Of a stretch of 36,703 nt of DNA, positions 9,332-36,694 are shown piece by piece. The number at the start of each line of letters is the position of its first letter. Position 1 is the stretch's first letter. This DNA comes from an uncultured Phycisphaera sp. (lineage in GTDB: Bacteria; Planctomycetota; Phycisphaerae; Phycisphaerales; SM1A02): contig CALFOM010000188.1 in assembly GCA_937919685.1 (NCBI GenBank), positions 1 through 36,703 on the forward strand. The letters are read 5' to 3'. Below the pieces are notes generated by a model. That model searched no databases. It saw nothing but the letters and a program-made list of their open reading frames with translations, and was not told the DNA's origin. Both the position numbers and the translations under genes were made by a program.

Positions 9332-9354
9332 GACGAATCTCTGCAGCAAGTGAT

Positions 9355-9394: not shown

Positions 9395-9485
9395 GGGGTG
9401 CTTCGGAATCGGACCGTCGAACGAATGGCGATCCGCATGATTTCGAACGTGTCGACCACCCCGGCCGACGAAGAAGGCTTCACGG

Positions 9486-10751: not shown

Positions 10752-10848
10752 GGCTGGCTCGGGACATTGCCGGGTCGAAGAAGTTCGACGCGACGAGAGA
10801 TCATGGAATCCGATCGCAAAGACCGGAGGAACTGCGAGAAGAGATCGA

Positions 10849-12173: not shown

Positions 12174-12215
12174 GTCAGTGGTTCCGGACCGGAAAATCGA
12201 TCGAGCCGGCGAGAC

Positions 12216-14242: not shown

Positions 14243-14862
14243 CAGTCCTGAACCTCCTCGACGGCGACGGCCCCGAGCGATTCGAGGAATGCCTCGGTCC
14301 GGGTGCGGAAGAACTTGGGATCACGAGCCTCGATGACGATGTAAAACCGATCGTCGGTGGCTCGCCGGAATCGATCATTGCCCAACAGCGGATGATTCAG
14401 CCGAGGCAGACCGTTCATCGTCAACATGCCGAACACGCTGGTCAGGGCTGCGAACAGGATGGTGAGTTCGAATATCACGGGGATGAACGCCGGAATCGAG
14501 AGCAGCGGCTTGCCCGAGATGAGATAGGGATACCCCGTCACCCAGACCATCGCCCACACCGACATGCCGCTCGAGTTGGTGAACGCCTGCAACACGAATG
14601 CGGCGATCAGACCGGTGAGCCCAGCAAAGAAGACCATGATCGGCAGAATCGTCGGCTTGATTCCCATGGCGCGGTCGAGCCCGTGCACCGGGAACGGCGT
14701 GCAGCAGTCCCACCAGCGGTATCCCGCCTGACGAACCTGCTCGGCGGCCTTCAGAATGTCGCCGGGGGTTTCGAATTCCGCCAGCAGACCGTGGATTTTG
14801 ACCGAGTCGGAAAGGGAGCCCGTCGGTTCGATGGCTGGGACTGATGTTTCAAACGTGGTCAC
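14242..14862 (-). CDS. actD: ACIII membrane subunit ActD (DUF3341)
   Basis: 206 aa. DUF3341 family subunit of alternative complex III. An N-terminal cytoplasmic ferredoxin-like domain includes the diagnostic stretch [30 protein letters not shown] (about 40-68). Two membrane helices follow (about 72-95 and 126-150), and a C-terminal segment with [14 protein letters not shown]. No cofactor is expected. It is encoded between actC and actE with 4-base and 1-base overlaps, so it is made in step with them. Confidence 0.93.
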
Positions 14863-16319: not shown

Positions 16320-19300
16320 GATCGAACTTCCTCAGCGATGGTCGACGCAGCGGCGTGTTCGCCGGCAGCCGCGTCCGAGTGACTGTCCTGATGACCGTTC
16401 CCGCCACTGGCGCGGGGTACGCCGGGGTTCGTCACCTTGGCGAGGTATCGGAGCCTGGGCTTGGTGTTGAGTTCTTCCAGCAACTGATACGAGACCTTCT
16501 TCTGTTGAAGTCTGGTCACGTTGGATTTCGTGTCGGCGAGGTCGCCGAACACGATGGCCCCGGTCGGGCAGGCCTGCTCGCACGCGGTCTTGATGACCCC
16601 GTCCGGAATCGACCAATCGGGGCTCGACGCCGTGCCGCCAGCCTGCGCCCATTCGTTCTTGTACTCGATCTTGGCCTCGTTGATTCGCTGCACGCAGAAC
16701 GAGCACTTCTCCATGACGCCGCGGTTGCGAACCGTCACTTCGGGGTTCATCTGCATCCGGCGCCACTGGTTCGGACCGTCGGACATGTAGTAGTCTGGCT
16801 TGACCGCAAACAGGCCTTCCTGTTCGCGAATGGGATCGCGACGCCAGTAGTCGAACCAGTTGAACCGGCGAACCTTGTAGGGGCAGTTGTTGCTGCAGTA
16901 CCGGGTGCCGATGCACCGGTTGTAGACCATCACGTTCAAGCCGTCCTTGTCATGGAGGGTCGCGGCGACAGGGCAGACCTGCTCGCACGGCGCGTTCTCG
17001 CACTGCATGCAGGTGACCGGCTGCACGAAGACCGCTTCCGGCGCGGCCGGATCATCACCCTTGAAGTACCGGTCGACGCGAATCCAGTGCATCTCCCGAC
17101 CACGAGCAATCTGGTCCTTGCCGACCACTGGCACGTTGTTCTCGGCCTGGCAGGCCGTGACGCACGCGCTGCAGCCGGTGCAGGTGTTGAGGTCAATCGA
17201 CATGCCCCACTTGAAGCGGGCGCCGTCGAGGTTGGTCTCTTCCCAGAGGCTGAGCCGATGGGCCACGTGAACCCGATGCTGCGCGAAGTCGGGATGACTT
17301 CGATAGTCGTCGAGCGTGGTCTCCCGCACGATGGAAGGAAGACGTTCCTGAATGCTGCCGAGCGGCACATCAGGAATCAACGCGTCCATCGCACCGTGAT
17401 CCTGAGTCTGAGCGAAGGCGTATCGACCGCCGGTCGGAGACATGGTCGCCCCCGTGGCGATCCAGGCGTTCTTCGTGGTTCGGATCGGATAGGCGTCGAA
17501 TCCCGCACCGTCGGCGATCGATCCCGAGTCGGGCCCCTGCCCCCATCCGAGCGAGATCGCCATCGTCTGTCCGCTCATCCCCGGAACGGGGAACACCGCG
17601 GCCTCGATGGCCTCGATGGACTGATCCCCAACCTTGATCGAGACGACGTCGCCGATCTTCAATCCGCGGGCCTTGTAAAGCGACGGACTGATCAACACCG
17701 CGTTGTCCCAAGTGATCTTGGTGATGCTGTCCGGAAGTTCCTGCAGCCAGCCGAGATTCGCGAAGCGGCCGTCGTAGACTCGGGCGTCGGTGTTGAAGAC
17801 CAACTCGAGGTCGTCGGCCGCGACGGCCTTTCGATCGACTGCGAACGCCTTGACCGCATCAGCGATCCGACCATTCTCGATCCGGGTCGAGGAGACCGGA
17901 GTCGCCGTGCCCTCGATCAGGCCGGTGTCGAGGACCGTCCGCCAGTGCGCTTCAAACGTTGTACCGGTGGTTCCGGAACGTGAGGCTTCGGTGGCACGGA
18001 CAATGGAGTAGCCCTCCTTCGGTTCCGTGCCGGCGAGCGTGGCCAGAAGTTCGATCGAACTCCAACCCTGCTGCTCGAGCGGCATCATTGGCTGGATGAG
18101 CGGCTGCACCACGGAGATCGTGCCGTCATACGCCCTCACATCGCCCCAGCTCTCGATCCAGTGCGCCCGCGGGAGATGCCAGACCGAAGCCTTGGAAGTC
18201 GCATTGGCGTAGAGGGAGAGATGAACCCGTTCCTTCGCCTTGCCCATGGCCGTGGCGAAGTCGAGGTCGACGGGCGCGTCGTAGACCGGGTTGCCGCCGA
18301 TCAGCACGAGCGTTTCGACCGCCCCCGCGTTCAGTGATTTCACCAGCGTCGAGATCGACGCCATACGACTCGGGTGCGGATCTTCGGTGTACTGAACGGT
18401 CTTGCCGACGTTGCCGAGCGCGGCATTGATCGCGGCGGCCATCGCGTGAACCGCGGGAGGCTGCCCCTCGCCGACGATCACCACGCACGCGCCGCCGTTG
18501 GCCTTGAGATCACGAACCATGGCGTCAAAGACCTTGGCGTTCCGGCCTTCCAGCGAGACGGTTCCCGCGAGTTCGTCCAGCCCGTTCATCGAGACGCCGA
18601 GCGCCCCGGCGAGCGAGGCGGCGACGGCGCCGACATCGCCGCTGCGAACCACCAGTCGATCATCGGCGTTCATGCCAGTGACCGACAACACGCCTTCGAC
18701 GGCGTAGACGCGACTCATCTCCTGATGCGCGGGATCCGAGGCGTCGAGTCGACGCTTCGATGCCCAGTCGCGAGCGAGGCGATTTGCGGCGGCATGCGTG
18801 GACAGCGGGTCGGCATCGAGGCAGACCACGACGTTGGCCTGATCGAGCATCGCGTGGACGCGTTGGGAACTGCCGAAGGCAATCTCGGTTCCGGCACGTT
18901 CCTCGTCGCCGGTGATCGCCTCCCATTCGTGCCATGTCGCCTTCGGAAAGGCCGACTTGAACTCTGCTCGCATGCGATCCATGCTCGGACTTCCACTGGC
19001 TTCGGCCAGCACCGCGAGACCGGCGCCGCCAGCCTTGCGAAGATCGATTCCAAATCGCTGGTCCGCCCACGTCTTGAACGCCGCAGCGTCCGCGGGCTTC
19101 CCGTCCTGATGGACCTCACGACTCCGCTCCGGGTCGTATGCCTGCAGGATTCCACTCTGCGTGATGGGGTCGCACGCGCCCATGTTGGTCGAGTGCGCTG
19201 CATTGCCCTCGAGCTTGATCGGACGACCGTCGATGCTTTTGATCAGCAGACCCTGTGCCACGCCGCCCCGCTCGCACGCGGACGCGAAGTGAACCGGACT

Positions 19301-19615
19301 GCCGGGAATTCGTCCGGCCGGACGCGCGGCGTAGGGAACGATGTGCGTTTCGGGAATCCGACGGCAGGCTGCGACGCCGAATCCAGCCAGCGCAAACGAG
19401 GCCCCCATCACCTTCATGAAGTGACGGCGGTCCTCACCTTCGAGAAGGTCGGCGTCCGCAGGAAACTCACGGTGCATCCAAGCCCGGAATTCGTCGGTGT
19501 TCTGAAGATCGTCGAGACTGCGCCAGTAGGCGCGTCGTGACGGCTCCGCCGACGGAAGGTCGCTGCCGCAACCGGAGATCTCGGGACGTTCCTCGCCAGG
19601 GTTCAGCGATGACAT
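16316..19615 (-). CDS. actB: ACIII large iron-sulfur subunit ActB
   Basis: 1099 aa. A fusion of a molybdopterin-oxidoreductase-like domain (about 100-730, present in ACIII without the Mo cofactor) and a four-cluster ferredoxin domain. A Tat-type signal [18 protein letters not shown] (63-80) ends in VAAC, a lipobox with Cys84, so it is probably a Tat-exported lipoprotein; the 60 residues before it are the usual ActB lead ([12 protein letters not shown]). Cluster motifs: [11 protein letters not shown] (about 811), [15 protein letters not shown] (about 868), [13 protein letters not shown] (about 903), and CSFC (about 972) with [10 protein letters not shown] (about 1015). It links quinol oxidation at ActC to the hemes of ActA and ActE. 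It overlaps actA by 13 bases. Confidence 0.95.
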
Positions 19616-20802: not shown

Positions 20803-22929
20803 TCAGTCCGCGGGTGAATCAGGGGCTTTGACGTAGGTCGCCTTCAGCAAGGAAATCCCTGCCTCGTCGCCGATCACGGTGAGCCGATCCCCGGATTCCA
20901 GTTCAAGATTTCCGCTCGGAACCAAAGTCCGGCTCCCACGACGAACCAGCGCCACCAGAGATCCGGTCGGAAAACCAATGTCTCGGATTTTCTTCCCGGA
21001 GAGGGCCGTCGCCGCGGAACCTGGTTCGAGGACCAGCGAGAGATACCGATCGTCTCGAAGGAGAACCTCCCGCAATGCCTGGTGACTCCGGGCCGAGATC
21101 CACTCGTCCTGGAATCCCCGCTGCTCGACGCACCCCGCCAACTGAGCCAGAATCCGAAGATGCAACGCCGGGTCCTCCGCGGGGCTCACCAAGAAGAACA
21201 CCGCGTGCACATCACGATGCGTGGTCGATGACGGCAACGCGTCACCGACGTCGATCTTCAATCCGCGACGGGAACGCACGACGACGAGGTACGGGCGAGA
21301 GATGCCCGGAAGTCGGAGATGAGGAAGCGCCACGCCACGGGTCACGGGCGTCGCGCCGACTCGAGTGCCTTCGAGGAACTGCGTGGCGATCTTGGTCACA
21401 TCCAGTTCGACCAACGGCGAGAGACGCTCGGCAGCCCGTTGCGTGATGGTCTCGAAGTCGGCATCCTCCCCCGCCTCCATGATCTCCGCAGTCACGACGA
21501 CTTCATCAAACGGATCGCTGGCACGAAGTCCGCGATCCTTCATGATGCCGCGAAGTTCGATATCGAGGCCGTCGAAGCGCCGCTGGCCCAACCGTTCAAA
21601 GACGTGGTAGATCGCCCCGCCTCGACGAACTCGTGGCGCCGCATATCCGAAGAACCACACCACGCCAACGATGACCAGCCCGAATGCGAAGATGCTCGGC
21701 GTCGGGCCCATCTCCAGAATGAGCCAGCACGGGCCCAGCAACCCGAGAAGCGGAAGCCATGGATATAGAGGCGTTCGAAAACTCGGGTCGTACGACTTCA
21801 GACCGCTCTCCCGCATCACCACCACCGACATCGAGAGCATCGCAAACATCAGCAGCTGGAACGCACTCGCGTATTTCGCGATCGACATGATGTCGAGTGC
21901 GAAGATGTAAAAGATGATCGAGCCGACGGTCACCAGCAGGGCCAGGCCCGGCGCACCAAATCGATTCAAGCCGCGAAAACCACTCGGAAGCAAGTGGTCC
22001 CGGCTCATGGCGAGTGGATATCGAGACGAACTGAGAATGCCGGCGTTGGCGACGGCCATGAATGCAAACAAGGCCGCACAAGTCACCAAGATCTGCCCAA
22101 CCGGACCAGCGATGGCAAATCCCGCATCTGCGACTGGGTGGAGGCTCGGCTTCGCGAATTCCGCCGGATCATTGACACCGACCATCACCGCCAGCCCGAG
22201 GATGTAGATGGCCACCGCGCATCCAAGCGCCAAGAGAATCCCCCGCGGGAGATTGCGCTCCGGGTTCTTGACCTCCTCGGCAATGCTCGCAACCTTCGTC
22301 ACACCGACATAAGAGATGAAGACGAGTCCGGCGGTCGAAAGAATCGAACCGAAGCCCTTAGAAAAGAAAGCCTTGAATCGAGTGGTGTCGATGCTCGGCA
22401 CGCCCTGCGCGAGAAACCACGTGAGAATCGTCAGGACGCCGATCACCAAGACCACCTGGAACCGAGTGGATGCTTTGGCACCGAAGAAGTTGATGCCGCC
22501 GAAAAGCGCCGCCAATCCGACGGCGACCCAGAGGATCCCCTTCTCTCCAAGGTCGACGTAAAGCGAGATATACGCACCCATGCCGATCAGCGCGAACGCA
22601 GACTTGAGGGTCAGCGCCAGCCAAGTTCCGAGGCCGCCGATCGTGCCCCAAAGCGGGCCCAGACTCCGGTCGAGGAAGAAGTAGGTTCCACCCGCCTTGG
22701 GCATGGCGGTCGCGAGTTCCACGATGCAGAGGGTCGGGGCGACCATGATCGCGGCTGCGATCAGGTAACTCAAAATGACCGCTGGGCCCGCCTGTTGGTA
22801 GGCAAGACCCGGTAGGAGAAAGAAACCCGCACTGAGTGTGGTTCCGATCGCGACCGCGAAGACGCCGAAGAGATTCAGCTCCTTCTTGAGTTTGACGGGG
22901 GTGCTCGGTGCGTTCTGGGTTTCTGACAT
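20803..22929 (-). CDS. APC-family amino acid permease fused to PTS EIIA-like and TrkA-C-like domains
   Basis: 708 aa. Residues 1-430 are an APC-superfamily transporter with about twelve helices: FGVFAVAIGTTLSAGFFLLPG is the unwound helix-1 substrate stretch, followed by ELATAMPKAGGTYFFLDRSLG and VKNPERNLPRGI. Residues about 475-630 resemble PTS EIIA of the fructose/nitrogen class, with the phosphorylatable-His motif VALPHLRLPG (His near 535) and VFFLVSPAEDPALHLRILAQLA. The last 75 residues resemble TrkA-C (RCK-C): GKKIRDIGFPTGSLVALVRRG and LESGDRLTVIGD. Domain order therefore suggests transport gated by phosphorylation or a nucleotide-like ligand; this is inference and the substrate is unknown. 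It is divergent from tatD. Confidence 0.88.
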   Translation of the reverse strand: MSETQNAPSTPVKLKKELNLFGVFAVAIGTTLSAGFFLLPGLAYQQAGPAVILSYLIAAAIMVAPTLCIVELATAMPKAGGTYFFLDRSLGPLWGTIGGLGTWLALTLKSAFALIGMGAYISLYVDLGEKGILWVAVGLAALFGGINFFGAKASTRFQVVLVIGVLTILTWFLAQGVPSIDTTRFKAFFSKGFGSILSTAGLVFISYVGVTKVASIAEEVKNPERNLPRGILLALGCAVAIYILGLAVMVGVNDPAEFAKPSLHPVADAGFAIAGPVGQILVTCAALFAFMAVANAGILSSSRYPLAMSRDHLLPSGFRGLNRFGAPGLALLVTVGSIIFYIFALDIMSIAKYASAFQLLMFAMLSMSVVVMRESGLKSYDPSFRTPLYPWLPLLGLLGPCWLILEMGPTPSIFAFGLVIVGVVWFFGYAAPRVRRGGAIYHVFERLGQRRFDGLDIELRGIMKDRGLRASDPFDEVVVTAEIMEAGEDADFETITQRAAERLSPLVELDVTKIATQFLEGTRVGATPVTRGVALPHLRLPGISRPYLVVVRSRRGLKIDVGDALPSSTTHRDVHAVFFLVSPAEDPALHLRILAQLAGCVEQRGFQDEWISARSHQALREVLLRDDRYLSLVLEPGSAATALSGKKIRDIGFPTGSLVALVRRGSRTLVPSGNLELESGDRLTVIGDEAGISLLKATYVKAPDSPAD

Positions 22930-26461: not shown

Positions 26462-26968
26462 TCAGGCGGTCCGCCGCCATGCCGCCACCAGACCGATCCC
26501 GACCAAAGGGATCCACGCGAAGATCGCCATCCAAAGCGAACGCCAGGGTGGGATCGGTCCGCCTACCACGACGTCGAACCGCACCGGATCCGCCGCGCCG
26601 TCTCCGTCGGGATCGATCTCGATGGACCAGGTCCCGGGAACCGCGAGTTCGAAGTCCGCCTTGAATTCACCATCGATCCTCGCTTCCCGGAAGCCCGATC
26701 GCATGACGGTCCCGTCGGAATGTCGGACGATCACTTCGGCAGCGGCATCACGGGTACCGATCCAGGCGATCTCGATCAGACCAACCCGCGGCGCCGGCGG
26801 CGACACCACCACTGCCGCGGGATGTTCCGATCGGGTTCCGGTCCAGACCACCACGCCGCCATCGGCCGTGACCTGACTCACGGGCATCGATACGAACGCT
26901 GCGAGGATGATGCACCACCACCAGCCTGACGGTCCACGACGTTCCAATCTTCTGCTTCGTCGAGTCAT
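26462..26968 (-). CDS. FixH/YtkA-like membrane protein
   Basis: 168 aa from ATG 26968, which shares ATGA with the stop of the CtaG fusion; the upstream open stretch is out of keeping with this coupling. An N-terminal hydrophobic segment (WWWCIILAAFVSMPVSQVTA) is followed by a periplasmic beta-rich domain containing VGLIEIAWIGTRDAAAEVIV and AVPGTWSIEID, resembling the YtkA-like/FixH immunoglobulin-type fold, then a C-terminal helix (SLWMAIFAWIPLVGIGLVAAW). FixH-type proteins accompany FixG in oxidase assembly, which suits its place after the CtaG-polyferredoxin gene. The homology is by eye and moderate. Confidence 0.65.
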   Translation of the reverse strand: MTRRSRRLERRGPSGWWWCIILAAFVSMPVSQVTADGGVVVWTGTRSEHPAAVVVSPPAPRVGLIEIAWIGTRDAAAEVIVRHSDGTVMRSGFREARIDGEFKADFELAVPGTWSIEIDPDGDGAADPVRFDVVVGGPIPPWRSLWMAIFAWIPLVGIGLVAAWRRTA

Positions 26969-29277
26969 GGCATGAACCCCGAAGTACCGCGCATCTCCAT
27001 CGGCTGGAAGACGATCCAAGCGGTCACCGTCCACAATGCGATGAATACCGCGGCGGACGGAAGCCAGCGAAGGGTGATGCTCCCGGGCGTGGGATGATCA
27101 TTTCGCTGAATCGCGATCGCACGCCACCCCCACCACGCGACTCCAAGACTCCCCGCGACGCCGAGTGAAAGCACGAGCAACTCGGCCGGCAGCATCCAAT
27201 CGGGCGGCGGCACGCAGCAACTCATGATTCGATCAGGAAGGCGATCGCTCACCCCGAGATCGTGTGCCACCCTGACCATGGACGCCTCCGCGGTCGGCCA
27301 GCCGGTGACCAAATGGAAGCCGAAGTGCACCACCCACATCGCCGCGCCGAGCGGCGCGGCGGCGAGGCCCGCGCGGGTGAGTCGCTCCCGTCGAGATGCC
27401 GACGAATCACCGATTGCGGCGAAGGCGAGAACGCCGAGCCCCGCAAGGATCGAAACAACCACGAATGCGGCCGCCACCAGCACTCCCGAATCATTTCCAG
27501 AGATGTCCTCAAGCACCCCGACCACGGGTCCGGTCATTCCAGCGGCGTTCGCGATCCCCCCGATGGCCAGCACGGCGAGCAGCACACCGAGATCGAGCCG
27601 ACGCGAGAGCCGCCCGATGCCGCTGCGCCATCCCGCGTCAGCCAGATCCGAACCGGGCACCTGGCGGATGAGTCCGACATTGTCGTGTGGGCAGGCACTC
27701 ACGCAGTCGAGGCAGAAGGTGCAGTCGAGATTGCCCGACTTACTGGGTATCAAGAGGTCGAGACCGCACCCCGGTCCGCCCGGTCCGCCGACCAGACAGT
27801 CGTGCGTGGTGCAGGTCGTACACCGAGCCGGGTCAATCGCCGCCACCGTCCGCGTCGAGATCGTCGACATCGCCATCTGGTACTGCCCCACGGGACAGAC
27901 GTAACGGCAGAAGGACGCGCCTTCGAACAACAGATCGATGGCCGTCGCGGCGACCACGAGTCCGATGATCAGGATCGCGGTCGCCAGCGGACTCGCCCAA
28001 AGATCGAAGGCCTCGTAGGCGACGAGCCAGATCACCACCAATCCGACGGCGATCCATTTGGAGCGAAGCCGACGCGGCCAACGCCATCGTGGCGAGACCC
28101 AACGCCGAAGAACGGAACGAGGAGCGATCAACGGACACGCGAAACAGGCGACGTTCCCCAGAACCAAGAGCAAGACCACCGTCACGCCTCGCCAATGCGT
28201 CCACGGAAGCGTGCCAGCGAGGTTCATCGGCGACTCGTCGGGGCCGAGCATCCCATCGATGGCGATGATCGCGGCGCCCGCAAGCGTCGCCAGTCGAATC
28301 CCCAGCCGGAAGGCTGACGAACGAAGCAGCCGACCAAGCATCGGTACGCGAAGCAGGTCGCCACGATCGCGGGGTGGGGAAAGTACGGGAAGCGAGATTG
28401 ACTTCGATGGAGTCGACGCGTTCGTGCCGCGCTGCGTCGGCCGGGTCCCGAGCATCCAACGTGCGGTGATGACCATCGCGGGAATCAGATAGACCAGGTT
28501 TCCGGGGACCCACATCAGCCCAGCGGCAAGCTGTTGATCGAGCACCGCATCGAAGCCTCGCGCCGCGGCGAGCTTTCCGTACCACGAATAGACCGGGGCA
28601 TCCGCGAAGGCGAGTGCCGCACTCACCACCGTATTCACGAGATCCGCGGAGACGAGATAAGGGATTAGCGCGATTCGCGGCCACGGCGACCGATACGGAA
28701 ACGGTGCGACAACGGGAAGCCAGAAGACAAGCCCAGCACCCAGCATGCTCACGTGCTCGACGAGGTGCCACGTCGGATTCTGAATGGCCAGTTCGTACGC
28801 GGCCGGAACATGCCAGCCCAGCGTCGTTCCAGCCATCAACACCCAACCCACCACCGGGTGGACCGCCCGACGCAACGCCGCACGGAACCACGGCGCCGCG
28901 AAGATCGGACCCAAGACGCCCGACCGCCACGAGCGAGGCAATCCCATCAGCATCGGCATCGCGGGGGCGCCGAACCACCAGAGCGGCGGCACCACCAGGG
29001 CCAGAAGCATGTGTTGGATCATGTGCGCCGAAAGGGAACGCTCGGCCGCCGCGTCTAACGGCGTGGCGACGGCCACAAGCAGTCCCAGCCAACCGAGACC
29101 GAACGACAGTTGTCTCCAGCGCGGAAATCGAGCTGCGGTACGGCGACCTGCGCGGAGAAGTCGACGCCGCCCGACGAAGTAGATGGAGATCGAGACCAGC
29201 GCCGCCACCACAGTCCACGGCGCGCCGGAGACGGCGGCCCCGAGCACTTCGACCGAGGTGGCCACGCCAAGGGTCAT
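26965..29277 (-). CDS. CtaG (caa3 assembly factor) fused to a FixG/NapH-like polyferredoxin
   Basis: 770 aa. Residues about 15-285 are CtaG_Caa3 family: seven helices with LSAHMIQHMLLALVVPPLWWFGAP, the TWHLVEHVSMLGAGLVFWLPV His pair and a final AGLMWVPGNLVYLIPAMVI. After a polar linker (about 285-310) comes a FixG/NapH-type membrane ferredoxin: CFACPLIAPR, CRYVCPVGQYQ (about 455), CTTCTTHDC (about 487) and CTFCLDCVSACP (about 520), enough cysteines for two [4Fe-4S] clusters and the NapH membrane motifs. About 220 more residues form further helices (WVVHFGFHLVTG) ending the protein. CtaG aids copper insertion at CuB; CcoG/FixG reduces Cu(II). A combined role is inference. It follows cytochrome b by 18 bases. 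Confidence 0.9.
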   Translation of the reverse strand: MTLGVATSVEVLGAAVSGAPWTVVAALVSISIYFVGRRRLLRAGRRTAARFPRWRQLSFGLGWLGLLVAVATPLDAAAERSLSAHMIQHMLLALVVPPLWWFGAPAMPMLMGLPRSWRSGVLGPIFAAPWFRAALRRAVHPVVGWVLMAGTTLGWHVPAAYELAIQNPTWHLVEHVSMLGAGLVFWLPVVAPFPYRSPWPRIALIPYLVSADLVNTVVSAALAFADAPVYSWYGKLAAARGFDAVLDQQLAAGLMWVPGNLVYLIPAMVITARWMLGTRPTQRGTNASTPSKSISLPVLSPPRDRGDLLRVPMLGRLLRSSAFRLGIRLATLAGAAIIAIDGMLGPDESPMNLAGTLPWTHWRGVTVVLLLVLGNVACFACPLIAPRSVLRRWVSPRWRWPRRLRSKWIAVGLVVIWLVAYEAFDLWASPLATAILIIGLVVAATAIDLLFEGASFCRYVCPVGQYQMAMSTISTRTVAAIDPARCTTCTTHDCLVGGPGGPGCGLDLLIPSKSGNLDCTFCLDCVSACPHDNVGLIRQVPGSDLADAGWRSGIGRLSRRLDLGVLLAVLAIGGIANAAGMTGPVVGVLEDISGNDSGVLVAAAFVVVSILAGLGVLAFAAIGDSSASRRERLTRAGLAAAPLGAAMWVVHFGFHLVTGWPTAEASMVRVAHDLGVSDRLPDRIMSCCVPPPDWMLPAELLVLSLGVAGSLGVAWWGWRAIAIQRNDHPTPGSITLRWLPSAAVFIALWTVTAWIVFQPMEMRGTSGFMP

Positions 29278-29295: not shown

Positions 29296-30849
29296 TCAAC
29301 GAGCAGCAACGGTATCCGAGTCGACTTCGGGTTCGGCTTCGGCGCGGGGATCGACGGTTGGTGATTGATCCCGACCGGGCTGCTGCTCCATCGCGCCGGG
29401 AATGAGTGCCGGAAGAGTTCCACCGTCGAGGGTCGAAAGGAAGGCGGCCAACGCCTCTGTCTCAGCGCTATTGAGGCTCTTGCCATAGGCGGGCATGTTG
29501 CCTCCACCCTGCTGAATCTGCCGCACCAGTTGATCCCAACTCAACCGAGTGGCGACATCATCGAGCGCGGGACCTCGCTCGCCACCCTCACCGCCGATGG
29601 AGTGACAATTGCGGCACTGGGCGTACTGCAGTTGGATTGCTCCCTGAAGTTCGAGCGGCGAGCGGTGACGGACGTATTCGATCGGCGTCGGAATGGAGGT
29701 CCACGCCTTCATCACCGGACTCCATGGTGACGTCTCGCCGAGCCAGGTCAGGACGGCCAGTGCGGTCACGATGATGCAGAGAATGATCACGGAAATCGGA
29801 CGACGAGACGGGGCCCGCTCGCCGCTTGGCGAGATGAACGGGAGCGCCGCCAAGAAGGCGATGCCGACCGGTGGACCAACGAGGATGAGGAAGGTCTCAG
29901 AGTCCGGTGGAAGCAGCGCGAGCACCGCAAACAACCAGAGGAACAGACCGTCGGGCCGTGGCGCGACTTCGATGATCGTCGGGCTGGGAACCGGGCCGGG
30001 ACCGAAGGGACCGTACCAGGCCGCCAGTCCGATCAATCCGATCAGCGCCGCACCGCAGAACACCATGTCACGCCGCGCCGCATCGGGGAAGAACGGAACG
30101 CCGGTCTTCTTAACCCGATCTTCATACTCTTTGCGATAGGTCTCGGGCTTGACCGGCTGGCCGACCTTGGGCATCTCGCTGATGCCGCCCTTGAGCACGA
30201 GGATCAAGTGGAGTCCGATCAGTCCGATCGCCGTGCCGGGAAGCACGAAGACGTGCAGGGCGAAGAATCGACTGAGGGTCGCACCGGAGATGTTCGGACC
30301 GCCGAGGACCACCGACCGTAGCCAGTTGCCTGCAAACGGGACCCGATCCACGATCGCGGCGCCGATACCGAGGCCCCAGTAGGCGTTGGCATCCCAGCGC
30401 ATGATCTGACCGGTGAACGCGAGCCCCAGCGTGGTGACGCACAGCGCGACGCCCGCCACCCAGGTCAGTTCCCGCGGGAATTTGTAGGTCCCGTGCAGGA
30501 AGATCTGCGTCATGTGGATCAACATCATGATGCACATGGCGTTCGAACTCCAGCCGTGAAGGGCTCGGAGCATCCATCCCATCGGAATCTTCTCGTCGAT
30601 GTAGACGAGGCTCTGGTACGCCTCGCCGGCACTCGGCACAAACAAGGTCGTTAGCAAGACTCCGGTCACCAACTGCACGATGAAGAACATCAGCGTGGCG
30701 CTGCCGAAGACGTACCACCACTTGGCGCTCCGAGGAACCTTGTGGAACATCGCATGCTCGGTGACCGCGACCAGACCGGTCCGGTCGTCGATCCATCCGA
30801 GGGTTCGTCCGATGACACCAATGACACCAATGACACCTGGGCTCTTCAT
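29296..30849 (-). CDS. qcrB: Cytochrome b (b6-type) with fused cytochrome c domain
   Basis: 517 aa from ATG 30849, with AGGAGAG eight bases upstream. Diheme b core: ligands His98/His112 (13 residues between) and His199/His214 (14 between), the spacing of b6-type proteins. Quinol oxidation site region: the usual PEWY is replaced; the aligned stretch reads APRPDGLFLWLFAVLALLPP. A C-terminal cytochrome c domain has CRNCH (412-416) and NMPAYGKSL with the likely axial Met. The N-terminus has a GVIGVIGVIG repeat. The protein oxidises quinol and reduces the fused c heme and the diheme c protein. It follows Rieske by one base. Confidence 0.9.
   Translation of the reverse strand: MKSPGVIGVIGVIGRTLGWIDDRTGLVAVTEHAMFHKVPRSAKWWYVFGSATLMFFIVQLVTGVLLTTLFVPSAGEAYQSLVYIDEKIPMGWMLRALHGWSSNAMCIMMLIHMTQIFLHGTYKFPRELTWVAGVALCVTTLGLAFTGQIMRWDANAYWGLGIGAAIVDRVPFAGNWLRSVVLGGPNISGATLSRFFALHVFVLPGTAIGLIGLHLILVLKGGISEMPKVGQPVKPETYRKEYEDRVKKTGVPFFPDAARRDMVFCGAALIGLIGLAAWYGPFGPGPVPSPTIIEVAPRPDGLFLWLFAVLALLPPDSETFLILVGPPVGIAFLAALPFISPSGERAPSRRPISVIILCIIVTALAVLTWLGETSPWSPVMKAWTSIPTPIEYVRHRSPLELQGAIQLQYAQCRNCHSIGGEGGERGPALDDVATRLSWDQLVRQIQQGGGNMPAYGKSLNSAETEALAAFLSTLDGGTLPALIPGAMEQQPGRDQSPTVDPRAEAEPEVDSDTVAAR
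30812..30838. repeat. 9-bp tandem repeat (3 copies) at the cytochrome b N-terminus
   Basis: Three copies of ATGACACCA (last with one change) encode GVIGVIGVIG just after the start of the cytochrome b gene. The unit keeps the frame. Confidence 0.85.
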
Positions 30850-30850
30850 T

Positions 30851-31435
30851 TCAGGTGCTCTCCTGAAGACCAGGCAGGCGTCCGCCCAGAATTTCGAAAC
30901 TGCCGTCAACGACCCGCCAGTCGTACTCGTAGAGGCCACGGGGCGGCGGTCCTGACGCGCGAGCGCCGTCTTCGTAATAGACGCCGCCGTGGCACGGGCA
31001 CATGAAGAGCCGCGACTGAGCAAACCACTCGACTGGACAACCAAGGTGGGCGCAGGTCACTGCGAAGACCTGAAAGGTCTCATGAGCGATGCACCGGACG
31101 TAGCAGACGTTCTGATTGGTATCGCCGTCGGTCGGGGAATCCCAGGGGTTGGTGAATTTCACCAGCACCGTCTCGCCGATCTTGAAGTTCGTCGCCTTGC
31201 CCAGCGCGATCCAGCGATTCGGATCGCCGGCCTCCGCCGGGCCGATCGCGACGCCGATGATCGGAACCGCCGCGAGCCCACCACCCACCGTAAGCAAGGT
31301 GGTTCCGGCGGCGAACAAAAATCCGCGACGCCCTCCGCTCTTCACAGCTTCGCATCCTTCGCAACCGCCGACTTCCGACGGGAGCGCCGAAGTAGGTTCG
31401 GTTCCGGTTGATTCTTCACTCGGTCGCTCACTCAT
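30851..31435 (-). CDS. qcrA: Rieske iron-sulfur protein
   Basis: 194 aa from ATG 31435, sharing ATGA with the stop of the diheme cytochrome gene. [2Fe-2S] ligands: Cys128 and His130 in CAHLGC, Cys146 and His149 in CPCHGG; Cys133/Cys148 form the expected disulfide. A Tat-type anchor (GGRRGFLFAAGTTLLTVGGG, RR36-37) precedes the helix, so TatC export is expected. The 35 residues before it contain a CEGC pair (Cys25/Cys28) on the cytoplasmic side that is not part of the known cluster. It accepts the first electron from quinol and passes it to cytochrome c. It is encoded one base before cytochrome b. Confidence 0.95.
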   Translation of the reverse strand: MSERPSEESTGTEPTSALPSEVGGCEGCEAVKSGGRRGFLFAAGTTLLTVGGGLAAVPIIGVAIGPAEAGDPNRWIALGKATNFKIGETVLVKFTNPWDSPTDGDTNQNVCYVRCIAHETFQVFAVTCAHLGCPVEWFAQSRLFMCPCHGGVYYEDGARASGPPPRGLYEYDWRVVDGSFEILGGRLPGLQEST

Positions 31436-32250
31436 GGTGCACCATCCTCCACTTCCGGTCCCGATGGCCAGGTGTTTCGCTTCGAGGCGAGGTATGCGAC
31501 AAGATCGGCAACGTCGGCCGCGTCTAGGCCCCCCGTGACCTCGCCACCGTCCGGCCCGCGGAATGGCCCCGCGGCCCCCGGCATGCCCAGATCGGTGCGG
31601 CCGAAGACGATGTTCGATCGCAGATGCTGGTCGCTGACCAAACGAAGATAGAAGGGATCGGTCACGCTGCCCGCGATCAATTGATCGGGCATCGCACCTT
31701 CCAGCACCGGCACCTTCTGTTCGGCGGGATGACACGCGGCGCACTTCGCCGCGAAGATGCTGGCACCTCTGGCAATATCACCCGTTGCATCCGACGGACG
31801 CCAAGAGATGCCCCGCGACACATTCGAACCTTCACTGCTGGCCCAGGTCGTATGCATCCCCTTGATGAAGTCGCGGATGATCTCATCCGAAACCCCACCG
31901 ATCGCGTTGCCGCCAAAACCTGGCATTCGACTGCTAGGGACGCCGTCGCGAATGATCGAGAACATCTCGCCGTCCGGTACCGCTTTGAGGTACTCGGCAT
32001 TCCGCATCGGGAGACCGGCGCCCATCTGTCCGTCGGCGCCATGACATCCGGTACAGCGTTCCGCCCACATCGCCTCGAATCCTGCGGTCGTCGCCACGGA
32101 GATCACCGGCGCCGGATTCGGCGGCGGTTTTCCCGGAAGGCGGTCGCATGCGGCCCCTACGAAAATCCACGATGCCGCGATCACCAGACGAAGACTCTTC
32201 GACGCGGACGTCAGTGGCTGATGAAGATGACTGGAATCGAACCGGATCAC
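31432..32250 (-). CDS. Diheme cytochrome c lipoprotein of the bc module
   Basis: 272 aa from GTG 32250, which forms GTGA with the preceding stop and has GAGGGAG seven bases upstream. Signal peptide ends in VGAAC, a lipobox with Cys36, so it is a membrane-anchored periplasmic lipoprotein. Two cytochrome c domains: CTGCH (about 64-68) with a Met in SRMPGFGG, and CAACH (about 167-171) with LGMPGAAGPFRG supplying the second axial Met. It precedes Rieske and cytochrome b, the place QcrC occupies in actinobacteria. It likely carries electrons from Rieske to the caa3 oxidase. Similarity to QcrC is functional by context, not close in sequence. Confidence 0.88.
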   Translation of the reverse strand: MIRFDSSHLHQPLTSASKSLRLVIAASWIFVGAACDRLPGKPPPNPAPVISVATTAGFEAMWAERCTGCHGADGQMGAGLPMRNAEYLKAVPDGEMFSIIRDGVPSSRMPGFGGNAIGGVSDEIIRDFIKGMHTTWASSEGSNVSRGISWRPSDATGDIARGASIFAAKCAACHPAEQKVPVLEGAMPDQLIAGSVTDPFYLRLVSDQHLRSNIVFGRTDLGMPGAAGPFRGPDGGEVTGGLDAADVADLVAYLASKRNTWPSGPEVEDGAP

Positions 32251-33116
32251 GATGAATCTCCCTCGGTCTGCTCGAAGCCCATTCGACTCTCGAACGAACG
32301 ACCGACCTGAAGACGGATCTTCGTGGTTCTGGAAATCACCGCGGCACAGGCGATCCCGAATGCGATCTGACTTCCGAGAAACCAGGGCCACGAGATGTAT
32401 TCCTCGAGGGTCGGATTGACGACTCGCATCGTGGCCCAGGCGATCCCTGTCCAGATGATCGGGGCGATCAAACCACCCGCCAGCAGCGGTCTGCGAGGCA
32501 TCATCGGAAGCGAAACCACGAAGACCATGCCGACGGCGAGACTCAGGCAGACGTGAACCGCCACCGCCGTGGCGAACCAACCGCCGTTGAAGAGGCGGAG
32601 TTGCTCCAGCGTCGCGTCACCCACCGATGGGAGCACAGTCCCGGCGAGGAGATTGATCGGCATCCAGAAACTGCCTTCGTCGATCAGTCCCCAACCCGCG
32701 GCGACCACCGCCATCGCGATGGCGCCAGCCACGGCACCCTTGAAACCACTTTGATACGGATGGATTTCTTCAGGAACCACGTTCCGAGGCGACTTCGCCG
32801 GGCGGGGTTCAAAGACCGGGGGTGGAAGCACCGCCTCGCAATCTGCAACCGGGATCGCCTCGACATTCTCGTGCGGGAAGACCTCCCTGAACCAGCCGAT
32901 CAAGCCGACCAGCGCGAAGGCCGCTCCGACCACGCTAACCATCCAGTTGGTGACCAGTCCCGCGAAGATGAACGTCAGGCCGAACGCGGCGAGAATCGGC
33001 CACGGCGTTGGCTGCGGAATCGCGCGGAGATACGGCATCTCCGACGGTCCACGCGGCGCCAGCGCCGCACGTTCCGCGAGCCGTTCGGCCTTTGATTTGT
33101 CGTGGTCGGGCGTCAT
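32247..33116 (-). CDS. Membrane protein of the second cox cluster, unknown function
   Basis: 289 aa from ATG 33116, which shares ATGA with the coxC2 stop. Two parts: residues about 35-85 hold two helices (PTPWPILAAFGLTFIFAGLVTNWMVSVVGAAFALVGLIGWFREVFP), resembling small aa3-oxidase accessory subunits; residues about 125-275 hold about four or five helices, with HPYQSGFKGAVAGAIAMAV, MPINLLAGTVLPS, MPRRPLLAGGLIAPIIWTGIAWATMRVVNPTLEEYISWPWFLGSQIAFG. A polar, Pro-rich linker joins them. No redox motif is visible. Overlaps at both ends (ATGA, GTGA) place it between the oxidase and bc genes, so it may be a linker subunit of a bc-oxidase supercomplex. That is inference. Confidence 0.75.
   Translation of the reverse strand: MTPDHDKSKAERLAERAALAPRGPSEMPYLRAIPQPTPWPILAAFGLTFIFAGLVTNWMVSVVGAAFALVGLIGWFREVFPHENVEAIPVADCEAVLPPPVFEPRPAKSPRNVVPEEIHPYQSGFKGAVAGAIAMAVVAAGWGLIDEGSFWMPINLLAGTVLPSVGDATLEQLRLFNGGWFATAVAVHVCLSLAVGMVFVVSLPMMPRRPLLAGGLIAPIIWTGIAWATMRVVNPTLEEYISWPWFLGSQIAFGIACAAVISRTTKIRLQVGRSFESRMGFEQTEGDSS
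32258..32264 (-). promoter_or_regulatory. Shine-Dalgarno GAGGGAG deciding the diheme cytochrome start
   Basis: GAGGGAG lies seven bases before GTG 32250. With the GTGA overlap it selects the start that gives a proper lipoprotein signal; longer frames upstream read Arg/Asp-rich and are not protein-like. Confidence 0.6.
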
Positions 33117-33736
33117 GCCGCGGCTCCCTGCGGGACTCGCCCGACAATGTAGACGAGCGTGAACACGAGGATCCAGACCACGTCCACGAAGTGCCAGTAC
33201 CAGGTCGCGACGTCCACCCGCTGATGGTCGCGCGCCGGGTTGATGCAACCGAAGAGCGAGAGGATGAAGACCCCGATCAACAAGACGAGTCCGACCAAGA
33301 CATGGAACGCGTGGAAGCCGACGAGGGAGTAGAAGTTGGTTCCGAAGGCGTTTGACTGGATCGTCAGCCCCTTGTCCTCGATAAGCCCCCACCACTCGTA
33401 GCCCGTGCCGAGAAGGAACTCCAGACCGAGCAGGATGGTCACCGCCAACCAGATCCGGAACGCCCCCATCGCGCCTCGCGCGAGCGACCTGACCGCCAGT
33501 ACCACCGTGATGCTCGAACTGAGCAGGCAGACGCTGTTGATCAGCACCATGTTCAGTTCAAGGCAGTCGAGCGGTTGCGGGCCGTCAGGGCTCTTCCCGA
33601 TGTAATAGAGGTAGGTCACCAGGAAGGCGCTGAAGAAGGCGCTCTCCATGAAGATCAAGGAAGCCATGCCGACCTTCGCTCGGGAAAGCGGTGCGGTCAG
33701 AGGAACATTGCTGGTCGTCGCGTTTAAGGCGGTCAT
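33113..33736 (-). CDS. coxC: Cytochrome c oxidase subunit III (second cluster)
   Basis: 207 aa, about five helices. Marks: LSRAKVGMASLIFMESAFFSAFL, FYSLVGFHAFHVLVGLVLL and the final VDVATWYWHFVDVVWILVFTLVYI. It lacks the His/Asp tail and long loop of the subunit III in the ACIII operon. It follows coxA2 by 27 bases and overlaps the next gene by four bases. It supports proton uptake and stability of the A1-type oxidase. Confidence 0.92.
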   Translation of the reverse strand: MTALNATTSNVPLTAPLSRAKVGMASLIFMESAFFSAFLVTYLYYIGKSPDGPQPLDCLELNMVLINSVCLLSSSITVVLAVRSLARGAMGAFRIWLAVTILLGLEFLLGTGYEWWGLIEDKGLTIQSNAFGTNFYSLVGFHAFHVLVGLVLLIGVFILSLFGCINPARDHQRVDVATWYWHFVDVVWILVFTLVYIVGRVPQGAAA

Positions 33737-33763: not shown

Positions 33764-35449
33764 TCACTCGTAATGTGCATCGGGATCCTCCGGGTGCTTG
33801 CGGTCCCAGAGCGGCCGCGCGCTGGTACAGGTCGGAATGCGGTCGAAGTTCCAATCGGGCGGCGGACTGGTGGTCGACCACTCGAGCGTCCAAGCGTCCC
33901 ATGGATCATCGCCCGCCACCTCGCCCTTGCGAAGGCTTCGGACCACGTTCCACAGGAAGATCGCGACGCCCGCCATCTGCACCGGAACTCCAATCGAGCT
34001 GATCAGATTCCAGATCTCCCAACCACGATCTACTTCGTAGGTGTAGATGCGGCGGGGCATGCCCAGCGCGCCCGAGACGTGCATGGGCATAAAGGTCAGC
34101 GTGAACCCGATGAAGAGGAGCCAGAACGTCCACTTCCCGAGCCGCTCGTTCAGCATTCGGCCAGTGGCCTTGGGGAACCAGTAGAACAACGCGCCAAAGA
34201 TTCCGAACACCGTCCCGCCGAAGAGGACGTAGTGGAAATGACCCACCACGAAGTAGCTGTCGGACAACTGCCAGTCCATGGGGACCGTCGCCAGCATGAT
34301 GCCGGTCAGTCCGCCGATCACGAACATCGCCACGAAGCCGGTCACGAAGAGCATCGGGGTTGTGAACTGAAGTCGTCCACCCCACATGGTGCCGAGCCAG
34401 TTGAATATCTTGATCCCGGTCGGGACCGATATCAGGAAGGTCGTGGCGCCGAAGAAAGAGTCGAGCACCGGCCCGAGTCCAACCACGAACATGTGGTGCG
34501 CCCAGACGCCCAGCGAGATGAACCCGATTCCGACCGTCGCCGCAACCATCAGGGGATACCCGAAGATCACCTTCCTGCTGAAGGTCGGCATGATCTCGCT
34601 CACGAACCCGAAGGCGGGGAGAATCAGGATGTAGACCTCGGGGTGACCGAAGAACCAGAAGAGATGTTGCCAGAGGATCGCAGACCCTTGCGTCTCGGGA
34701 TCGAAGAAGTGCGCTCCAAGGGTCCGGTCGAAGAGCAGCATCGACTGAGCGGCGGTGAGAATCGGTATCGCCACCAGAACCAAGAACGCCACCACCAGCA
34801 TCATCCAGGCGATCATCGGCATTCGCATCAACTTCATGCCCGGACACCGCATGCAAAGGATGGTGGCGATGAAGTTGATCGCGGTGGTCATGCTTCCGAA
34901 GCCACTGACCAGAATTCCCAGGATCCAGTAGTCGGTGCTGTTACCGCGACTGAAGGTCCGACTGGTGAGCGGCGCGTAGGCGAACCAACCGACATCGGGC
35001 GCGGTGCCCGCCCCATAGAGGCCGTCGGCGCCCACGTAGCTGAAGTAGAGAAGGAGCCCGCCAAAGATGAACAGCCAGAATCCGAAGGCATTCAGCCTCG
35101 GGAAGGCCATATCACGGGCTCCCACCATGAGGGGGATCAGATAGTTACCGAAGCCCAGCAGGATCGGCATGCCCACCAGGAACACCATGGTGGTGCCGTG
35201 CATCGTGAACAACTGGTTGAAGGTGGCCGGATCGACGATTTCGTTTCCGGCCTGGGCCAGCTGAAGTCGCATGAACGCCGCTTCAATGCCCCCAACGAGG
35301 AAGAAGATCAGGCCGGCACCGATGTACATCATCGCCAGCTTCTTGTGATCGACGGAGATCGCCCATTGCATCACCGACTCCCAGAAACGCCCGCGCGGAG
35401 ACGGCCCCGGGAGGGATGCGAGACTGGAATGTCCTGAGCCAATGGTCAT
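33764..35449 (-). CDS. coxA: Cytochrome c oxidase subunit I, A1 type (second cluster)
   Basis: 561 aa. Catalytic subunit of the second caa3 oxidase: DHKKLAMMYIG at the start, D-channel Asp in GARDMAFPRLN, the proton-path Glu in FFGHPEVYILILPAFG (34631-34654), CuB histidines in GVWAHHMF, K-channel Lys in TGIKIFNW, and heme ligands in VVGHFHYVLFGG. The intact GHPEVY makes this an A1-type enzyme, unlike the A2-type CoxA at 7631-9331. C-terminal stretch SLRKGEVAGDDPWDAWTLEW is typical. It follows coxB2 by 15 bases. Confidence 0.97.
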   Translation of the reverse strand: MTIGSGHSSLASLPGPSPRGRFWESVMQWAISVDHKKLAMMYIGAGLIFFLVGGIEAAFMRLQLAQAGNEIVDPATFNQLFTMHGTTMVFLVGMPILLGFGNYLIPLMVGARDMAFPRLNAFGFWLFIFGGLLLYFSYVGADGLYGAGTAPDVGWFAYAPLTSRTFSRGNSTDYWILGILVSGFGSMTTAINFIATILCMRCPGMKLMRMPMIAWMMLVVAFLVLVAIPILTAAQSMLLFDRTLGAHFFDPETQGSAILWQHLFWFFGHPEVYILILPAFGFVSEIMPTFSRKVIFGYPLMVAATVGIGFISLGVWAHHMFVVGLGPVLDSFFGATTFLISVPTGIKIFNWLGTMWGGRLQFTTPMLFVTGFVAMFVIGGLTGIMLATVPMDWQLSDSYFVVGHFHYVLFGGTVFGIFGALFYWFPKATGRMLNERLGKWTFWLLFIGFTLTFMPMHVSGALGMPRRIYTYEVDRGWEIWNLISSIGVPVQMAGVAIFLWNVVRSLRKGEVAGDDPWDAWTLEWSTTSPPPDWNFDRIPTCTSARPLWDRKHPEDPDAHYE

Positions 35450-35464: not shown

Positions 35465-36694
35465 TCAATGCAGGGTCATGAGGAAGTCGGTGACCGCGTC
35501 GAGTTCCGACGGGTCGAGTTTGAGCGACGGCATGTTGCAGCCGGGCTTCAGTTGATTCGGATCGTCGATCCACGCGTGGAGGTTGTCCCGATTCAGCGGG
35601 ATGAACCCGGAGCCGATGGTGTTACGGCTTGCGAGATGGGTGAGGTTGGGTCCGAACATGCCGTCGCTCAAGCCACTGATGGTGTGGCAGTTGAGACACG
35701 CATACTCGGCGAACACCCGACGTCCCGCATCGACTGACGCGTCGACGACGGCAGGCTTCCGTTGCTCGTCGAGCCAGGTCTCGAATTCGCCCGGCTCATC
35801 GGCGTAGACCCGGATCAGCATGTGAGCGTGCTGGGTCCCGCAGTATTCGGCGCATTGTCCAAGAAAGATGCCCTTCCGATCGGCCGAGAACCACGTGTAG
35901 TTGGTGTGTCCTGGGATCAGGTCCATCTTCCCCGCGAGCCTTGGCACCCAGAAACTATGGATCACGTCGGCGGACTCGAGGCGCAGCCAGATCGGACGGC
36001 CGACCGGCACGTGCATCTCGTTGGCCGTGACGACCTCGCCGTCGGGCCCCGGGTAGCGGAATTCCCACCACCACTGATGCCCGATCGCGACGACCTCCAT
36101 CGAATTCTCGGGTGGAGTCGTGATGTCGATGTCCCGCAGCGTTCTGATGGTCACCATCGTGAGCACGAAGACGATGATCGTGGGAATCACCGTCCAGGCG
36201 ATCTCGATCGGGATGCTCCCATAGATCTGAACGGGTTCGGCCGAGGATTCGTCGGCGGATCGACTCGCGAGCCGCCGAGCGCGGACGCCCTTGACGATCG
36301 CAACCACCAGAAATCCCTGTACCACCACGAAGATGACGATGCAGATGCCGAAGACCAGATAACTGAGATCACGGATCTCACGTGATGGCGGTGATTCGGG
36401 TGCGAAGATTCCGGTGACCCCGGCGCCGGACACCGGCGGTGCATCGGGGTCGCAGACCACGAGCCTGGCATCCATCTCCGCGACCGATCCCTTGACGGTG
36501 TACGGCGGCGGCGCCGCGGATGGAATCGGCGGTGCGGGCGGCGATACGACATCCTGATCGGCCTGAACCGGCAAAAGTCCGGCCGGAAGCTGGCCCGCGA
36601 CGCAGAGCGAGGCGAAGAAGACGATGGCGATTGCAGATCGAACTCCAATCAATCCAGTTCTTCCCTTCCAGAGGCTAGAGGCGGTTCCCGACAC
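35465..36694 (-). CDS. coxB: Cytochrome c oxidase subunit II with fused cytochrome c (second cluster; start near window edge)
   Basis: Up to 409 aa. Signal segment (RSAIAIVFFASLCVAGQLPAG), Pro-rich linker, two helices (about 110-135 and 158-182), a cupredoxin domain with GHQWWWEFRYPG and CuA site CAEYCGTQHAHM (about 278-289), then a cytochrome c domain with CLNCH (about 331-335) and GCNMPSLKLDP with the axial Met. The start is uncertain: GTG 36694 is the last in-frame candidate in the window, TTG 36652 would give a neater signal peptide, and the frame stays open to the window edge. It is the first visible gene of the second operon; its promoter lies outside. Confidence 0.94.
   Translation of the reverse strand: MSGTASSLWKGRTGLIGVRSAIAIVFFASLCVAGQLPAGLLPVQADQDVVSPPAPPIPSAAPPPYTVKGSVAEMDARLVVCDPDAPPVSGAGVTGIFAPESPPSREIRDLSYLVFGICIVIFVVVQGFLVVAIVKGVRARRLASRSADESSAEPVQIYGSIPIEIAWTVIPTIIVFVLTMVTIRTLRDIDITTPPENSMEVVAIGHQWWWEFRYPGPDGEVVTANEMHVPVGRPIWLRLESADVIHSFWVPRLAGKMDLIPGHTNYTWFSADRKGIFLGQCAEYCGTQHAHMLIRVYADEPGEFETWLDEQRKPAVVDASVDAGRRVFAEYACLNCHTISGLSDGMFGPNLTHLASRNTIGSGFIPLNRDNLHAWIDDPNQLKPGCNMPSLKLDPSELDAVTDFLMTLH

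Follow-up and report, generated by a model that had tools for sequence, protein, structure and literature searches.

In the genome of an uncultured Phycisphaera sp. (GenBank assembly GCA_937919685.1) we analysed contig CALFOM010000188.1, a stretch of 36,703 nucleotides referred to here as the window, and found that near the end of a bc-caa3 oxidase operon it encodes a membrane protein in which a CtaG domain, a NapH-like iron-sulfur (Fe-S) core and a C-terminal module follow one another in a single chain. The fusion of CtaG with an iron-sulfur membrane protein is real and is one uninterrupted gene. The first-pass annotation, made from the letters of the window alone, had described CtaG and a polyferredoxin in one polypeptide of 770 amino acids (aa), and its account did not include the third, C-terminal module. 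We propose, tentatively and with slightly less than even confidence, that the protein is a bc-caa3 assembly factor that would combine copper delivery and electron supply in one chain, keeping copper as Cu(I) for CtaG; the anatomy can be read directly in the gene, and the copper chemistry is what we infer. The parts of the fusion and the small gene that follows it are listed here, with conservation counted in two sequence sets (of 77 and 67) described below.

26965..29277, minus strand: CtaG / NapH-like / C-terminal-module fusion protein, 770 aa, ATG start, about 16 predicted membrane helices
28453..29184, minus strand: Caa3_CtaG domain, aa 32-275, 7 helices, with invariant H85, H89, H156, H171, H175 and D247 on the predicted outer face
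27643..28344, minus strand: NapH-like core, aa 312-545, 4 helices, two Cys-Pro motifs and two [4Fe-4S] motifs, from TIGR02163, alignment with Escherichia coli NapH and YccM, and the model
28132..28146, minus strand: first Cys motif, C378-x2-C381-P, predicted cytoplasmic face, 77/77 and 67/67
27892..27909, minus strand: second Cys motif, C457-x3-C461-P, predicted cytoplasmic face, cysteines 77/77 and 67/67
27691..27822, minus strand: two four-cysteine [4Fe-4S] motifs, C486/C489/C494/C504 and C519/C522/C525/C529, 77/77 and 67/67
26986..27612, minus strand: C-terminal 5-helix module, aa 556-764, no Pfam match, invariant M581, H651, H655, M760 and M762
27313..27327, minus strand: H651-x3-H655, predicted outer end of a helix from the models and topology, 77/77 and 67/67
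26986..27006, minus strand: C-terminal QPMEMRG (758-764), predicted outer face, conservation as given below
26462..26968, minus strand: FixH/YtkA-like small gene, coupled through ATGA, read as signal peptide, outer domain and C-terminal membrane helix

The fusion lies in an open frame of 776 codons with no internal stop, and its start is separated from the preceding cytochrome b/c gene (29296-31044) by 18 bases. A genome_contigs scan returned 288 stretches encoding a relative, of which the best 80 loci were kept; these were picked by similarity to the whole query, so that counts among them are not a frequency. All 80 gave a single-frame match without an internal stop, and in 77 of them the stop codon lies within the contig. 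Phyla of the fetched loci were taken from record titles, and many of the loci are metagenome-assembled genomes (MAGs). The fusion was found in records named Planctomycetota, Verrucomicrobiota and Acidobacteriota, and some of these records bear the title of a strain or complete genome (Lacipirellula limnantheis I41, Pan216 and Acidobacteriaceae KBS 96). An alignment of 77 sequences, the window and 76 relatives, had a median pairwise identity of 43% and a minimum of 36%; it excludes L037, L104 and L110, which are truncated 3', and L111, which is truncated 5'. The distances of the two halves correlate with each other (r 0.88 over pairs of 44 loci, and 0.59 at COX1 distances above 0.2). The single 770-aa polypeptide of the first-pass annotation therefore stands: it occupies one frame, it is kept in distant relatives, and it is not the product of a frameshift.

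The N-terminal part matched the Pfam model Caa3_CtaG (PF09678) well over its curated cut-off (181 versus 27.7 bits, aa 32-275); the NCBIfam equivalog TIGR02737 did not reach its own (60 versus 279 bits). The five histidines H85, H89, H156, H171 and H175, together with D247, are invariant in 77/77 sequences, and H85, H89, H156 and D247 are also present in three CtaG proteins that have no Fe-S part. Copper ligands proposed for Caa3_CtaG are outer-face residues that include an invariant aspartate (PMC8239418, PMC9145763), and D247 would correspond, by position alone, to D249 of the Bacillus subtilis protein. The annotation had taken CtaG to be needed for building the CuB centre. This claim mixes two unrelated proteins of the same name, and in the passages of the two papers that bear on it the role of Caa3_CtaG at CuB is called tentative (PMC9145763) or not established (PMC13344008). 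As described there, B. subtilis CtaG mutants have an oxidase that is inactive yet contains haem and is not rescued by copper, and the site that CtaG serves is unsettled (PMC9145763, PMC13344008).

In the second part, two Cys-Pro motifs and two four-cysteine motifs come in the same order as in NapH/MauN, the first motif being one residue shorter. Its 12 cysteines, from C378 through C529, are invariant in 77/77 fusions and in 67/67 sequences of a cross-architecture set, made up of 55 fusions (by record names 37 Planctomycetota, 12 Verrucomicrobiota and 5 Acidobacteriota, plus the window), 6 stand-alone proteins without CtaG and 6 members of a more distant group. H361 is not invariant across these architectures (48/55 fusions, 6/6 stand-alone, 0/6 distant). 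Model matches were faint: NapH/MauN (TIGR02163) scored 20.9 bits against a curated cut-off of 213 (E 2e-4) on the window protein, CcoG/FixG (TIGR02745) gave no match to it at E ≤ 0.1, and the Fer4 models of Pfam appeared below cut-off only. TIGR02163 gave E 5.9e-10 in the CtaG-less relative L112 and 7.4e-16 in the more distant L129, both below cut-off. Of the domains named in the annotation, then, Caa3_CtaG was recovered, Fer4 appeared below threshold, FixG did not appear, and neither YtkA nor FixH matched the small-gene protein of the window; of its "FixG/NapH polyferredoxin" the NapH side survives, weakly, and the FixG side does not. Because the NapH/MauN match is weak and CcoG/FixG is unmatched, the precedent of CcoG as a cupric reductase holds only by analogy.

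The C-terminal module matched no family in the Pfam scan, and it is strongly conserved. M581, H651 and H655 are invariant in 77/77 fusions, as are Q758, P759, M760, M762, R763 and G764, and across the three architectures M581, H651, H655, Q758, P759, M760, M762 and R763 are invariant in 67/67. A membrane module that conserves histidine and methionine and no cysteine would fit a copper site. AlphaFold models were made of the whole 770-aa chain (predicted local distance difference test, pLDDT, 85.6; predicted template modelling score, pTM, 0.65) and of residues 303-770 separately (pLDDT 90, pTM 0.91), and in them the helices are read as a layout of 7 + 4 + 5. Averaged over the 77 sequences, lysine plus arginine sum to 39 in the inside loops and 7 in the outside loops, which places the N- and C-termini outside and the Fe-S domain inside. 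With this topology the cysteines are predicted at the inner face, and the His/Asp set of CtaG together with M581/H651/H655/M760/M762 at the outer face. Foldseek found no solved structure at E ≤ 0.001 for the whole model or for residues 303-770, and a second structure comparison gave best Z scores of 5.9 and 6.9, respectively, a range that the tool deems uninformative; these failed matches do not show a new fold.

The place of the gene in the genome connects it with a particular oxidase. Ahead of the fusion, which stands near the end, the operon encodes COX2 with a haem domain, COX1, COX3, a subunit-IV-like protein, a c-type cytochrome, a Rieske protein and a cytochrome b-cytochrome c protein. 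Listed backwards from the fusion these are as follows.

29296..31044, minus strand: cytochrome b fused to a cytochrome c domain (bc complex), directly before the fusion, by Pfam
30851..31744, minus strand: Rieske protein, by Pfam; reading frame drawn from the first start, true start probably further in
31432..32580, minus strand: c-type cytochrome with two haem-domain matches, by Pfam; true start probably further in
32247..33395, minus strand: subunit-IV-like protein, weak PF12270 match below cut-off, cluster COX4x
33113..33736, minus strand: oxidase subunit III, by Pfam
33764..35449, minus strand: oxidase subunit I, PF00115 at 548 bits, CtaD_CoxA over cut-off
35465..36694, minus strand: oxidase subunit II with a cytochrome c domain (caa3 type), by Pfam and NCBIfam; the contig ends here

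The annotated position at a bc-caa3 operon was borne out in the window and in most of the fetched loci. A profile search placed the cytochrome b of a bc complex immediately ahead of the fusion in 67 of 80 loci, with four more having too little contig; in L071 it lies 1.1 kb before the fusion, and in L108 the operon is rearranged so that the oxidase genes lie on one side of the fusion and Rieske/cytochrome b on the other. Of the 54 loci whose contig extends at least 7 kb upstream, 49 have COX1 on the strand of the fusion. The fusion is present in 17 of the 61 nearest genomes, the window's own included (12 full-length, 3 as pieces that share an open frame, 1 truncated at a contig end and 1 split over frames). 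All 17 belong to the 18 genomes in which the cytochrome b of this operon is matched at E ≤ 2.9e-127, after which the matches drop to 1.8e-45. The exception is G034, where the order is different: COX2, COX1-COX3, CtaG alone, Rieske and cytochrome b. CtaG likewise stands alone beside oxidase and bc genes in L120, L121 and L130. In one of the nearest genomes (G014; L122, 7112-10853) the fusion appears broken over three overlapping frames, either a damaged gene or a sequencing error. Tight co-evolution of COX1 and the fusion is weakly supported: their distances correlate at r 0.68-0.70 over all pairs of 44 loci, and at COX1 distances above 0.2 the values for CtaG, core and C-terminal part are 0.10, 0.09 and 0.01.

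The only Caa3_CtaG match in the window's genome is the fusion itself. The window also holds a second oxidase operon (6565-19615, minus strand) with alternative complex III genes (Fe-S protein, NrfD, ActD and cytochrome c), SCO1, COX2, COX1 and COX3; no CtaG match was found in it, and it contains the only SCO1 match of the genome.

Across its phylum the fusion is a minority trait. In a survey of 294 sampled Planctomycetota genomes, 3 had a full-length match in one frame and 51 any match at E ≤ 1e-10, counts that may be too low as at most three candidates were scored per genome; the survey of Planctomycetota suggested by the annotation thus found the fusion present, in few members. Six of the 294 genomes encode a version of the Fe-S half and C-terminal module without CtaG (L112-L117), 41-45% identical. 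Its neighbours on the upstream side in L112-L116 encode a His-rich membrane protein and a lipoprotein of the YtkA type, the latter with the motif NM(S/T/N)HAGM. The His-rich protein carries an HWAEH motif in L112-L115, the part of L116 shown beginning after the motif, and in the single case scanned (L113) it reached the cut-off of no Pfam model; the L113 lipoprotein, likewise the only one scanned, matched YtkA over the Pfam cut-off with 45.4 bits. Downstream of the stand-alone gene, 6/6 loci (L112-L117) encode a small secreted protein whose mature form is predicted to start with HEGPPFP or HDGPPYP; its N-terminal histidine is a possible metal site. A more distant group also keeps the module, with AHxxxH and QPMEMR retained (L118, L119, L123, L124, L128 and L131), and the two of these that were scanned, L118 and L119, have an N-terminal YHS metal domain. 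L118 adjoins a NapH-like gene, further ferredoxin-type genes and a molybdoenzyme gene whose scores as NapA (nitrate reductase) and as formate dehydrogenase are about equal. In a quick tree all six stand-alone sequences cluster together (support 100), and an open fork links them to several groups of fusions, a pattern that would fit the fusion of a stand-alone gene as well as the loss of CtaG from a fusion.

What the fusion might do is suggested in part by which other assembly factors accompany it. Cox11 matched in 0/14 fusion genomes, with a control that was positive only in Caulobacter, and CcoG in 0/14 at E ≤ 0.001. Weak CcoG relatives would have shown, since the CcoG control was positive in 6 of 14 known genomes and over cut-off in 1. 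SCO1 was present in 14/14, the weakest at 1.3e-4 (G005), and each genome had two or three COX1 matches. Within the set of families searched, which did not include reductases of the CrpH kind (PMC13038864), only the fusion qualifies as a candidate CuB-type factor and candidate oxidase-linked reductase. Under our proposal, electrons from quinol or a cytoplasmic donor would enter the NapH-like core and cross the membrane; at the outer His/Met site they would reduce Cu(II) or keep copper in the Cu(I) state; CtaG would then deliver Cu(I) to the oxidase, at CuB or CuA; and the small FixH-like protein could be an outer docking or folding partner. The annotation's idea of physically linked copper reduction and delivery remains the best single reading.

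Several observations weigh against it. Cu(II) reduction and copper binding by the fusion are themselves things we infer by analogy; the core is not CcoG by model, and NapH itself is not known to us as a copper reductase. Mid-membrane, the chain shows no redox cofactor, and the meeting of M581, H651, H655, M760 and M762 in space makes only a putative site. Within the C-terminal module the lysine-plus-arginine signal is flat (inside loops 1.4 and 1.0; outside loops 1.0, 1.8 and 1.0), so its orientation rests on counting helices from the Fe-S domain, and the whole-chain pTM of 0.65 leaves the placement of CtaG unsure. In the 12 genomes with CtaG-less versions there was no Caa3_CtaG match (0/12), and in L118 the molybdoenzyme operon means that the module need not concern copper. 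The operon link is not universal either, because in 7 of the 76 loci with enough upstream sequence (L059, L078, L079, L082, L098, L104 and L107) the fetched stretch has no oxidase gene of this type and the fusion stands among unrelated genes. All but L107 of these are Verrucomicrobiota records, and in five (L059, L079, L082, L098 and L104) the same gene of a type of about 272 aa (cluster 27) precedes the fusion instead of oxidase genes. A constant operon, as suggested by automatic choice of reading frames, proved too strong a description once a profile search and a check of neighbours had shown these seven loci apart; among close relatives of the window the fusion goes with a single type of operon, and one verrucomicrobial branch has moved it or kept it apart.

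The small gene adds to these doubts. Its position is as annotated: the ATGA overlap with the fusion at 26965-26968 makes it a gene of 168 aa rather than a GTG-started reading frame of 190 aa, and such a gene follows the fusion in 69 of 77 loci, with the four-base overlap in 46 of the 69. Of the eight loci without it, three have less than 200 bases of contig and five have room and no match (L054, L059, L078, L079 and L081). The FixH/YtkA label is weak. With PF05751 and PF13115 the window's protein matched neither family, and at E ≤ 0.1 its relatives matched YtkA in 10/43 and FixH in 5/43, at best with 2e-4 and 4e-4, respectively. Copper ligands of the Met/His type are a trait of the FixH/YtkA family. 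In an alignment of 70 rows no histidine or cysteine of the small protein occurs in more than 40% at any aligned column, and the only such methionine is the initiator, so that it is not obviously a copper chaperone. An Asp-Gly-Gly is kept right after the apparent signal peptide, and Asp36 is invariant in 43/43.

The relatives without CtaG permit a broader reading, which we rate as possible but doubtful. The NapH-like core and the 5-helix module (M581, HxxxH, QPMxMR) would together form an unnamed family of transmembrane metal, probably copper, reductases found in three architectures: behind CtaG for caa3 assembly, alone beside YtkA, and behind YHS in a molybdoenzyme operon. The CtaG fusion would then join copper reduction with insertion into the oxidase, replacing Cox11 and CcoG.

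The electrons may have a destination other than copper, an explanation we hold to be unlikely. The core would take quinol electrons for thiol/disulfide chemistry, for example at the CuA cysteines of subunit II, or for haem, and CtaG would handle copper alone. NapH/MauN is the nearest model of the core, a molybdoenzyme gene adjoins the distant relative L118, transfer of electrons through the membrane to numerous acceptors has been proposed for NapH-like proteins (PMC8238504), and the Cys-Pro motifs, which NapH and NosR need, are discussed as possible disulfides in these relatives (PMC5928378). However, the invariant set on the predicted outer face is made of histidine and methionine, not cysteine, and CtaG-less relatives adjoin YtkA. 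Decidedly unlikely, in our judgement, is a cytoplasmic cupric reductase of the CcoG kind, in which Cu(II) would be reduced inside at the Cys-Pro motifs, with CtaG and the C-terminal module moving Cu(I) outward. Both cysteine pairs, C378/C381 and C457/C461, are invariant and have a predicted cytoplasmic position, and CcoG is said to act on Cu(II) in the cytoplasm (PMC13038864), but the fusion has no match to CcoG, its first motif is C-x2-C-P where E. coli NapH and YccM have C-x3-C-P, and the transport pathway is only supposed. Fe-S clusters are common sensors, and a fusion could provide control as easily as catalysis; the clusters might report oxygen or redox state and gate or stabilize CtaG with no electrons passing to copper. 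We think this very improbable, as the full carrier layout of NapH is kept, including membrane Cys-Pro motifs that a sensor would not need. The chance of an artefact, whether a frameshift, an assembly error or a run-on of two genes, is practically nil: the gene of G014 is broken over three frames and many loci are MAG contigs, but the single frame in 80/80 loci, strain and complete-genome records among them, the residues invariant over 77 sequences and the correlated distances of the halves refute it.

If the fusion is indeed an assembly factor joining copper delivery to electron supply, it bears on questions that recent papers treat as open: by what route caa3 oxidases obtain their copper, whether it is CuA or CuB that Caa3_CtaG serves, and whether copper is maintained as Cu(I) by a dedicated reductase (PMC13344008, PMC9145763). 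A natural fusion of Caa3_CtaG with an electron carrier in three phyla suggests that the job of CtaG and a redox step go together. It offers a single-protein system that names the residues to mutate, and it exposes a conserved His/Met membrane module that has no Pfam family match. CtaG fusions as such are already known (CtiP, CopD-CtaG; PMC9145763), as are Fe-S cupric reductases linked to oxidases (CcoG). The literature searched, which consisted of passages rather than whole texts, held no description of the CtaG/NapH-like fusion or of its C-terminal module. A published Caa3_CtaG phylogeny took proteins of 6 to 9 helices (PMC8239418), and this limit would leave out a fusion of 16 helices.

Elsewhere in the window, a 708-aa amino-acid permease is followed, within 20803-22929 (minus strand), by phosphotransferase system (PTS) EIIA type-2 and TrkA-C domains.

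The nearest parallels lie in several known proteins. CopZ of Archaeoglobus fulgidus likewise joins an Fe-S domain to a copper carrier and is reported to reduce Cu(II) (PMC7558416), but CopZ is cytosolic, and its likeness to the fusion is one of described design. CcoG, a cupric reductase with two [4Fe-4S] clusters (PMC7558416), shares with the fusion its membrane helices, two [4Fe-4S] motifs, a genetic link to oxidase assembly and an adjoining FixH-like gene. It differs in that the fusion does not match the CcoG model, stands beside a bc-caa3 rather than a cbb3 operon and is joined to CtaG. No Pfam match to an Ig-like C-terminus such as that of CcoG was found, residues 561-757 being mostly helices in the models, and YccM likewise lacks this domain (PMC7558416). 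With NapH/MauN the fusion has in common the 4-helix core, the two Cys-Pro motifs and the two [4Fe-4S] motifs, although its score is far under the NapH cut-off; E. coli NapH and YccM are both without the 5-helix C-terminal module, besides having the longer first motif. The CtaG of B. subtilis is similar in its 7 helices, its conserved outer-face histidines, its invariant aspartate and the position of its gene, which closes an oxidase operon (PMC9145763), but the known Caa3_CtaG protein stops after 7 helices, where the fusion continues for another 490 residues with Fe-S motifs and an extra module. CtiP of Corynebacterium glutamicum, a CopD-CtaG fusion that is required for a bc1-aa3 supercomplex, also contains a CtaG domain within a protein of 16 predicted helices (PMC9145763). 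In CtiP the CtaG domain is C-terminal, behind CopD, whereas in the window it is N-terminal, and its partner here is a NapH-like Fe-S core followed by a His/Met module.

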